From positions 62,001 through 126,000 of the forward strand of contig NZ_JAPNLK010000006.1 of assembly GCF_026627505.1 (NCBI RefSeq): DNA of 64,000 bases, written 5' to 3'. A program made the position numbers and the translations under genes. The notes under the pieces are model-generated. The model saw only the letters and a list, made by a program, of their open reading frames with translations, ran no database searches and was not told the origin of the DNA. The number at the start of each line of letters is the position of its first letter. Position 1 is the stretch's first letter. Of the stretch, positions 2,839-12,586 are shown piece by piece. This DNA comes from Streptomyces sp. H27-H5 (GTDB lineage Bacteria; Actinomycetota; Actinomycetes; Streptomycetales; Streptomycetaceae).

Positions 2839-4250
2839 CCACGGAGACTGCTCACCCTGAGCTCGATGGCCTGGGCACCTACGAATACGGCTGGGCCGAC
2901 TCCGACGCGGCGGGCGCCGTCGCCAAGCGGGGTCTGTCCGAGGATGTCGTCCGCGACATCTCGGCCAAGAAGTCCGAGCCGGAGTGGATGCTGAACCTCC
3001 GACTCAAGGGCCTGAAGCTGTTCGGCAAGAAGCCCATGCCGAACTGGGGCTCGGACCTCTCTGGCATCGACTTCGACAACATCAAGTACTTCGTGCGTTC
3101 GACCGAGAAGCAGGCCGCTTCGTGGGAGGACCTGCCCGAGGACATCAAGAACACGTACGACAAGCTCGGCATCCCGGAGGCGGAGAAGCAGCGCCTCGTC
3201 GCCGGTGTCGCGGCCCAGTACGAGTCCGAGGTCGTCTACCACCAGATCCGCGAGGACCTGGAGGAGCAGGGCGTCATCTTCCTCGACACGGACACCGCGC
3301 TGAAGGAGCACCCGGAGCTCTTCCAGGAGTACTTCGGCACGGTCATCCCGGTCGGCGACAACAAGTTCGCGTCGCTGAACACCGCCGTGTGGTCGGGCGG
3401 CTCGTTCATCTACGTGCCCAAGGGCGTCAAGGTCGACATCCCGCTCCAGGCCTACTTCCGCATCAACACGGAGAACATGGGCCAGTTCGAGCGGACGCTG
3501 ATCATCGTCGACGAGGACGCCTACGTCCACTACGTCGAGGGCTGCACCGCCCCGATCTACTCCTCGGACTCGCTGCACAGCGCCGTGGTCGAGATCATCG
3601 TGAAGAAGGGCGGCCGCTGCCGCTACACGACGATCCAGAACTGGTCGAACAACGTCTACAACCTGGTCACCAAGCGCGCCGTGGCGTACGAGGGCGCGAC
3701 CATGGAGTGGATCGACGGCAACATCGGTTCCAAGGTCACCATGAAGTACCCGGCGGTCTACCTGATGGGCGAGCACGCCAAGGGCGAGACCCTGTCCATC
3801 GCCTTCGCGGGCGAGGGCCAGCACCAGGACGCCGGCTCCAAGATGGTCCACATGGCGCCGAACACCTCCTCCAACATCGTCTCCAAGTCGGTGGCGCGAG
3901 GCGGCGGCCGCACCTCCTACCGCGGCCTGGTCGAGATCGGCGAGGGCGCGCACGGCTCCAAGTCCAACGTGCTGTGCGACGCGCTCCTGGTCGACACGAT
4001 CTCCCGCTCGGACACGTACCCCTACGTGGACGTCCGCGAGGACGACGTCTCCATGGGTCACGAGGCCACCGTCTCCAAGGTCTCCGACGACCAGCTCTTC
4101 TACCTGATGAGCCGCGGACTGACCGAGTTCGAGGCCATGGCCATGATCGTGCGCGGCTTCGTCGAGCCCATCGCCCGTGAGCTGCCCATGGAGTACGCGC
4201 TGGAGCTGAACCGGCTGATCGAGCTGCAGATGGAGGGCTCGGTCGGTTAG
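2835..4250 (+). CDS. sufB: Fe-S cluster assembly scaffold SufB
   Basis: Core scaffold subunit of the SufBCD complex (471 aa) on which [4Fe-4S] clusters are built from SufS/SufU sulfur. The start ATG at 2835 follows a strong GGGAGGAA ribosome site (2821-2828) and overlaps the sufR stop. The conserved blocks are intact: [12 protein letters not shown], the VEGCTAPIY cysteine region, the stretch around [15 protein letters not shown], and the C-terminal [19 protein letters not shown] motif shared with SufD. Length is normal for actinobacterial SufB, with no intein insertion of the kind found in the mycobacterial homologue. Confidence 0.97.
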
Positions 4251-11306: not shown

Positions 11307-12182
11307 TCAGGCGGCGCCGCGGACCGCCTCCAGGGCGGTTCGGACGCCGGCCTCGATGTCCGTGATCGGGTAGATCACCTCGCGCACCGTCCGGTCCCGG
11401 TCCAGGACGAGGGTCAGCCGCTTGAGCCGGCTCACCCCGCCCGCGCGGAAGGTCGGCAGCCGCAGTGCCGAGGTCAGCGCGAGTCCCGCGTCCGAGAGGA
11501 GCGGGAAGCGCAACCGCTCCGCCTCGGCGAACTCCCGCTGCTCGTCGGGCCGCTGGGTGGAGACGCCCTGTACCGTCGCGCCCGCCGCCGTGAACTCGGC
11601 CAACTGGTCCCGGAACGTGCAGGATTCCAGGGTGCACCCCTTCGCCCCGGGGATCCCGGCCCACCCCGGCGGATAGGACTCGGCCCGGGCGTAGGCGCCG
11701 GGGAAGCAGTACAGGACCGTGAACGGCGTGTCCGCCACGGGGTCGCGAGGCTCCCCGAACCGGTCCGGCAGCAGCAGCTCCGGCACCCGGGTGCCGAGCA
11801 GCGCGTGGACCCGCGCCGCCTCCCGCGAGGATTCCTCGGTCGTCGCCGTCATCTCTCCCTCTCCCAGGACCCAGGTGTCCCCCCAGTCCTGGAGGGCCAC
11901 CAGCACCGGCAGCAGCCCCCGGCCGCGCGGGGTCAGCCGGTACTCGTGCCGCACCGGACGTTCCTGGTACGGCTCGCGCGTCAACACCCCGGCCTCGACC
12001 AGGAGTTTCAGCCGCTCGGTCAGCACCTTGCGGGAGACGCCGAGCTCGCGCTGGAACTCCTCGAACCGGTGCACGCCGCGCGCGGCGTCGCGCACGACCA
12101 GCAGCGTCCACCAGTCGCCCACGACGTCGAGGGCCTGGGCGATGGAGCAGTCCGCGTCGCCGAGGTGCGTGCGCTGGGCCAT
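11307..12182 (-). CDS. HxlR-type regulator fused to a peroxiredoxin domain
   Basis: 291-aa two-domain protein. Residues 1-110 are a winged-helix HxlR domain: DCSIAQALDVVGDWWTLLV with the redox-type Cys12, then SRKVLTERLKLLVEAGVLTR and HEYRLTPRGRGLLPVL. Residues 125-291 are a peroxiredoxin of the BCP/PrxQ kind: FTVLYCFPGAY, the peroxidatic and resolving cysteines C183 and C188 in GCTLESCTFRD, and LRFPLLSD. The fusion suggests a regulator that senses or removes peroxide itself. The ATG at 12182 has an AAAGGAG site 8 nt upstream. Frame is continuous through both domains, so this is not two genes. Targets are unknown. Confidence 0.85.
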   Translation of the reverse strand: MAQRTHLGDADCSIAQALDVVGDWWTLLVVRDAARGVHRFEEFQRELGVSRKVLTERLKLLVEAGVLTREPYQERPVRHEYRLTPRGRGLLPVLVALQDWGDTWVLGEGEMTATTEESSREAARVHALLGTRVPELLLPDRFGEPRDPVADTPFTVLYCFPGAYARAESYPPGWAGIPGAKGCTLESCTFRDQLAEFTAAGATVQGVSTQRPDEQREFAEAERLRFPLLSDAGLALTSALRLPTFRAGGVSRLKRLTLVLDRDRTVREVIYPITDIEAGVRTALEAVRGAA

Positions 12183-12230
12183 GGGAACTCCTTTGTCCGT
12201 TGACCCAAGGCTGCCATGCTGACATAGTCC

Positions 12231-12245
12231 GTTCCCAAAAGGAAC
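12231..12245. promoter_or_regulatory. Palindrome upstream of the HxlR-peroxiredoxin gene
   Basis: GTTCC-N5-GGAAC, with a poly-A spacer, lies 49 bp upstream of the start codon. On the minus strand a TATGTC hexamer follows it, so it may be an autoregulatory operator at the promoter. The rest of the gene-free stretch 12246-12586 is GC-rich (about 80%) with no convincing gene or site. Confidence 0.45.
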
Positions 12246-12586
12246 TGACCTGTTCGTGGTGGGCGGCGTGTGGTGAGGGGCGAGGACGTGCCGAGGGTGG
12301 CGTCGCTCCCCGGCGGCCCGGTCTCCCCTTCGGGTCGGCCCGGCCCGCGGCGCCACCCACGGACCCGCCGCGGCCCCGGACGGGGGTCTGGGCCGCGGCG
12401 TCACCACCGAGCCGGGGGCGCTGCCTCGCCCTGCTCGCCGCCGCCTGGGAGTCGGGAGTCCGAGCGTGTGGGGAGCCGGGACCCCGGGCGTGGGGGAGGG
12501 AGCCGGGGCCCATTCCCGCCCACCGAGCGCGACACGCGGCGCGACCGTCACATGAGACCGGTTCGCGACCGCGGCCCGTCGCCGGT

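Follow-up and report, generated by a model that had tools for sequence, protein, structure and literature searches.

Regulators of the HxlR/DUF24 family bind palindromic operators and control their own genes. Peroxiredoxins (Prx) are suspected of passing oxidation on to regulators, but the two are usually separate proteins whose contact is difficult to capture; in relays of the Orp1-Yap1 type, a thiol peroxidase hands its oxidation to a transcription factor, and two proteins are involved. Excerpts of two reports describe YodB, CatR, HypR and QorR as HxlR/DUF24 regulators with an N-terminal sensor cysteine that govern detoxification regulons (PMC6943732, PMC11633110), and HypR, YodB and CatR as sensing HOCl, quinones and diamide through that conserved residue (PMC6943732). 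The protein described here shares with them the winged helix and the N-terminal sensor cysteine; however, ordinary HxlR relatives are about 130-175 amino acids long and have no enzyme domain, whereas this one continues into a Prx domain that brings another cysteine of reactive type. A search of the open-licence literature by title and start of abstract returned no HxlR-Prx or MerR-Prx protein, and within this scope absence is no proof; orf11 is, in the part of PMC4763440 that deals with it, a 128-aa HxlR protein without a fusion.

We analysed a stretch of 64,000 nucleotides from Streptomyces sp. H27-H5 (contig NZ_JAPNLK010000006.1, positions 62,001 to 126,000; hereafter the window), in which the following features define the gene and its domains:

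11307-12182, minus strand: HxlR-peroxiredoxin fusion gene, 291 aa (stop-free frame and full-length relatives)
11868-12125, minus strand: HxlR (DUF24) winged-helix DNA-binding domain, residues 20-105 (Pfam PF01638)
11379-11642, minus strand: core of a PrxQ-like peroxiredoxin domain, residues 181-268 (Pfam PF00578, AF2 model, Foldseek)

The translated frame contains no internal stop, and both Pfam domains score well above their cut-offs, HxlR with 88.6 bits against 20.8 (E 2.5e-25) and AhpC-TSA with 51 bits against 26. Together with the recurrence of the frame across genomes, this bears out the earlier note, which had read the gene from the DNA letters as a genuine one-chain HxlR and PrxQ-like protein. 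The nearest solved structures include 4gcv and 2f2e/PA1607 for the HxlR domain and are PrxQ/BCP proteins for the Prx domain, the best being BcpB of Mycobacterium tuberculosis (5epf), and a Foldseek search with the Prx domain of an AF2 model likewise gave BCP/PrxQ proteins as best matches, with BcpB 5epf at the top. The model was built on 33 Streptomyces sequences (mean pLDDT 77, pTM 0.69), and the strands of its Prx part start at residue 138. Its confidence is poor at residues 1-22, 104-111 and 176-184, and as the pLDDT falls below 50 exactly at 1-22 and 176-184, the model does not allow Cys12 and Cys183 to be placed relative to each other. The domain resembles PrxQ/BCP proteins such as M. tuberculosis BcpB and Xanthomonas campestris PrxQ in its fold, its GCT...C cysteines and its KR motif. 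It differs from them in having Ala for Thr at position -3, a longer pre-Cys loop (judged by eye), a resolving cysteine that is often lost and an attached DNA-binding domain, and it scores far under the NCBIfam PrxQ equivalog cut-offs: the thioredoxin-dependent thiol peroxidase models NF006960 and NF053650 gave 38.4 against 140 and 37.2 against 260. The model for RrpB-type redox regulators, NF047364, reached 62.6 bits, under its curated cut-off of 175.

The two-domain frame occurs in 18 of the 41 genomes of a first comparison, one of them the genome of the window. A search of 294 Streptomyces genomes at E<=1e-60 found it in 83, and this threshold leaves distant, Cys-losing fusions under-sampled in the residue counts given below. 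Among plasmid records, matches over at least 80% of the query were found in four Streptomyces and one Nonomuraea, and the Nonomuraea protein passes both Pfam models. All 162 fusion loci used have a single frame of 284-315 aa, and the carriers include the single-contig genomes G013 and G026. Median dN/dS was 0.18 for the HxlR part, 0.40 for the linker and 0.22 for the Prx part (1405 pairs of C188-keeping fusions); on these ratios, purifying selection acts on the HxlR and Prx domains alike. A frameshift or assembly error that joined two ordinary genes, which the earlier note had named as a danger, has nothing in its favour and is thus excluded by the recurrence of the frame in 18/41 and 83/294 genomes, and the uniform frames, also in single-contig genomes, and the selection on both parts leave it with next to no probability. 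For residue and operator counts, the 162 proteins were merged into 146 distinct ones; loci L021-L100 were taken as the top 80 among 198 relatives, and L019 and L020, with an HxlR domain alone, were left out of the 98- and 146-sequence counts and placed in the control. One member of the set, L133 6806-7720 (genome G010; member L004), has a run of seven Phe in the HxlR domain that is probably a sequence error, and was kept. A Sinorhizobium match reaching residue 183-195 was discarded, the annotated record being an ordinary HxlR-sized gene beside an MFS gene.

The candidate redox and active-site residues lie at the following positions:

12147-12149, minus strand: Cys12, the sensor-type cysteine of HxlR proteins (146/146 fusions, 21/21 ordinary HxlR)
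11634-11636, minus strand: Cys183, peroxidatic-type cysteine of the GCT motif (146/146 fusions; aligns with the GCT cysteine of BcpB)
11619-11621, minus strand: Cys188, resolving-type cysteine at +5 (kept in 99/146 fusions)
11418-11420, minus strand: Arg255, in a KR motif aligned with BcpB (146/146 fusions)

The three cysteines are where the earlier note had put them. C12, C183, E186 and R255 are invariant in the 146 non-redundant fusions, and Arg255 presumably occupies the position of the conserved Prx active-site arginine. The description of a two-cysteine Prx holds for this protein, in which C183 and C188 are intact, and for C183 throughout; it does not hold for the family, as position 188 is Cys in 99 fusions, Arg in 46 and Ser in 1. 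Nine fusions have exactly two cysteines, and all nine retain C12 and C183. Cys12 is indeed the conserved N-terminal HxlR cysteine; however, all 21 usable members of a control of 22 ordinary HxlR proteins have it as well (L262 was lost, giving no match), so its invariance is a family trait and no proof of a relay. The textbook Prx motif is PxxxTxxC, with Thr or Ser three residues before the peroxidatic cysteine. The window protein has Ala there (A180), as do 113 of the fusions (Thr 19, Gly 10, Ser 4), and stand-alone Prx relatives, when translated, also read PGAxGCT. Because of this replacement, peroxidase activity appears plausible but not assured. An inactive Prx domain in all homologues, the other danger named in the earlier note, is contradicted at the level of sequence by the invariance of C183 and R255. 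The invariance of C183 and the nine two-Cys proteins are, in our view, the best indications that the peroxidatic-type cysteine has a part in regulation.

These residues also bear on whether the fusion might be an autoregulated enzyme, that is, a working Prx peroxidase whose HxlR domain sets the amount of the protein and its neighbours, with Cys12 sensing and the Prx domain having no need to signal. The conserved Prx active-site residues agree with such an enzyme, as does the generic nature of Cys12, DUF24 regulators sensing by their N-terminal cysteine without any Prx domain. However, two distinct regions of the fusion tree have no resolving cysteine, which is odd for a recycling peroxidase unless it is a 1-Cys enzyme, and the same Prx subfamily has been joined separately to MerR, which favours a regulatory use. 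We consider the enzyme reading unlikely.

The MerR-Prx fusions are single frames and comprise L116, L118-L123, L166, L244 and L246-L248; in L118, the one run against Pfam, MerR and Redoxin/AhpC-TSA domains were found. Of the 56 Prx domains placed in a tree, the 27 from HxlR fusions group together (support 96/96), and the 12 from MerR fusions stand elsewhere, beside stand-alone proteins. Both kinds of fusion combine a common Prx subfamily and a DNA-binding domain in a single frame, but MerR is unrelated to HxlR and the places in the Prx tree are separate; as read from this tree, one Prx subfamily is joined separately to two unrelated DNA-binding domains. Full-length MerR-Prx proteins occur in 4 of 246 genomes of the class. 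In the promoters of L116, L118-L122 and L166, a MerR-type dyad flanked by TTGAC and TTTA-like elements can be made out by eye. Plasmid records annotate these proteins (L116, L118-L123, L166, L244) as 'redoxin family protein' or 'MerR family transcriptional regulator'. On an Agrobacterium plasmid (L280 2453-3361), a short HTH gene is followed by a peroxiredoxin gene; the pair aligns nearly over its whole length with MerR-Prx and is a split or decayed form of it.

Upstream of the fusion gene lie three predicted regulatory elements:

12231-12245, no strand: predicted operator palindrome GTTCC-N5-GGAAC (one match in the window; conserved upstream of fusions)
12227-12249, no strand: extended inverted repeat GTC-A-GTTCC-N5-GGAAC-G-GAC (sequence reading; columns of 117 aligned sites)
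12221-12226, minus strand: conserved -10-like hexamer TATGTC straight after the operator, with a putative promoter role (column frequencies)

The single match in the window compares with 0.02 expected. In the 200 nt upstream of the fusion genes, the site is exact in 100 of the 146 and has one mismatch in 38 (138/146 at no more than one mismatch), against 0.1 exact and 1.1 one-mismatch sites per set, about 1.2 in total, in shuffled upstream sequences. Alignment of 117 of the 138 site-bearing regions, those with the room needed on both sides, widens the palindrome to about GTnAGTTCCTTTTGGGAACnGAC, with TATG after it; family-f3 loci have TATACT in place of the -10-like hexamer. These counts establish the palindrome picked out in the earlier note as a conserved predicted operator, about GTnAGTTCC-N5-GGAACnGAC, in the fusion's own promoter, as far as sequence conservation can do so. 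At least two sites (up to two mismatches) are present in 40 of the 146 upstream regions. Two or more operators precede 35 of the 47 fusions without C188 as against 5 of the 99 with it, and 93 of these 99 have a single operator; the multiplicity in C188-less fusions may reflect common descent. The form with an A/T-rich spacer and zero mismatch occurs once in the strain's own genome, which has 16 plain-palindrome sites, and in 87 of the 294 Streptomyces genomes, with one to three each.

In the window, 416 bp lie between the fusion gene and dapD, which face each other. Between the two, the closest relative, L021 (98% identity), has a gene for a 479-aa MFS_1 exporter, divergent from the fusion and with a common palindrome. 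A relative of this exporter is divergent from the fusion in 96 of 112 close-clade loci (65-100% identity to the window protein), with the operator placed between the two genes, and is missing from the other 16. As the exporter is the divergent neighbour in 96/112 close loci, dapD was set aside as a target. Alignment to the intact L021 gene identified its remains:

12264-12555, plus strand: relic of the divergent MFS_1 exporter gene, with an N-terminal piece at 12264-12309, a middle piece at 12331-12437 and a C-terminal piece with stop at 12497-12555

The middle piece has a local score of 144 against a shuffle maximum of 38, and tblastn at 1e-5 did not detect the relic. Judged by this alignment, the exporter of the window strain is a decayed relic. 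Genes for sufU/DUF59, which would hint at a Suf or Fe-S link, lie beside many close loci; none was seen in the short loci of other clades.

The partners in 41 loci of other clades are other MFS proteins (13, one cluster; that of L127 is MFS_3), enolase (8), ABC-2 permease (6) and O-methyltransferase (6), the gene caller having left 8 unassigned. At L130, L131, L221-L225 and L228, enolase is divergent from the HxlR-Prx gene, mostly with two operators in between. This arrangement is like that of SCO7639 of Streptomyces coelicolor, which excerpts of PMC9739823 place divergent from the enolase gene SCO7638 and propose as an enolase activator, maybe impaired by an effector or modification; another source, in the portion seen, lists SCO7639 as MarR family (PMC6637917). 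By analogy with the eight enolase-linked loci, SCO7639 may be an HxlR-Prx protein; activation is proposed for it in PMC9739823, and repression is the direction that we propose for HxlR-Prx.

Regulation of the fusion's own gene only was also considered and dropped, as L021 proved to have the exporter and sites were found at the methyltransferase. Extra sites in fusion-bearing genomes lead to an O-methyltransferase and a MOSC-domain protein. The former belongs to the Methyltransf_3 family and has catechol- and caffeoyl-CoA-O-methyltransferases among its solved relatives. We inspected 30 of 61 methyltransferase matches from 80 fusion-bearing genomes and 30 of 34 from 60 other genomes. A site at no more than one mismatch precedes the methyltransferase in 23 of the 30 loci from fusion-bearing genomes (19 exact), 17 of these 23 lying at a distance from the fusion gene or on a different contig, as against 1 of the 30 from fusion-free genomes. 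The remaining 7 loci from fusion-bearing genomes have the methyltransferase without a site, and 27 of the 80 fusion-bearing genomes gave no methyltransferase match. An exact site precedes the methyltransferase of G338, a fusion-free 1300-contig draft where the query has a plain HxlR protein as its best relative. Identity to the query is mostly about 68% or above for site-bearing methyltransferases and 57-68% for those of fusion-free genomes, so that orthology and operator are confounded; the exception is fusion-bearing G010, where a 61%-identity methyltransferase, seen apart from the 30 loci, has an exact site. The strain's own methyltransferase (G000:C106:2361-3011) retains a one-mismatch site at 3038-3052, so the regulator probably still has work despite the lost exporter. 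At L234 3503-3585 and L235 3697-3781, the operator lies between divergent O-methyltransferase and MOSC-domain genes, which suggests the MOSC protein as a further target. At L347 2564-4893, an operator-bearing O-methyltransferase adjoins a MerR regulator and a predicted flavin oxidoreductase that, by eye, resembles old yellow enzyme. The site at L236 in fusion-free G373 falls within what looks by eye like a P450 gene and is most likely a chance match.

The putative targets of the fusion include exporters and an O-methyltransferase, unlike the HxlR/DUF24 systems compared here. The earlier note had pictured the gene without these partners, having missed the divergent exporter (a relic here), the O-methyltransferase with its like operator and the MerR-Prx fusions. 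Such targets would also suit a sensor of ligands or electrophiles, in which the Prx fold is a pocket for a redox-active aromatic of the quinone or catechol type, and alkylation or S-thiolation, rather than peroxide, modifies Cys183 or Cys12. The exporters and the catechol/caffeoyl-CoA-type O-methyltransferase, the Ala in place of the -3 Thr and the response of DUF24 relatives to quinones all speak for this possibility, but invariant C183, E186 and R255 look more like a conserved peroxidatic site than a simple pocket, and we find this reading as unlikely as the enzyme reading.

The explanation we favour, with some reserve, is that the fusion protein is a one-component redox switch with detoxification targets, in which the Prx domain serves as sensor or relay. 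Bound to the operators as a dimer, the reduced protein would hold down expression of the exporter, the O-methyltransferase and its own gene. Hydroperoxide from redox cycling, or the redox-active compound itself, would oxidise Cys183 of the Prx domain, and this would alter the HxlR domain, either by a change of conformation or through a disulfide with Cys12. The oxidised protein would then release DNA, and the compound would be exported and O-methylated; in the window strain, with its exporter decayed, the regulator and the O-methyltransferase would be left. The compounds handled are perhaps redox-active ones of the catechol or quinone type. We infer repression as the direction, the chemical signal and the relay, and the assignment of the regulon is more certain than that of the signal or relay. 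The differences in partners between clades, and enolase, which is no obvious redox target, count against this explanation, as do the 16 close loci lacking the exporter, the fusion-bearing genomes that lack the methyltransferase or its site, the site in fusion-free G338, the confounding of operator with orthology and the Ala at position -3. A narrower form, which we advance only tentatively, is a built-in thiol-peroxidase relay in which peroxide oxidises Cys183, Cys12 resolves it and the resulting Cys12-Cys183 disulfide sets DNA binding. The C188-less clades, including the nine two-Cys proteins, would be its pure form, and MerR-Prx a second, separate use of the sensor module. In contrast to the two proteins of Orp1-Yap1, such a relay, here only proposed, would lie on one chain.

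A peroxiredoxin and a regulator on one chain would offer a compact model for the sensing of peroxide or quinone stress, and the natural two-Cys members make the proposed relay accessible to mutagenesis and mass spectrometry. The enolase loci provide a hypothesis for the enolase regulator SCO7639. The predicted regulon, with its exporter and catechol-type O-methyltransferase, may be a lead on how redox-active compounds are handled in antibiotic-producing Streptomyces.
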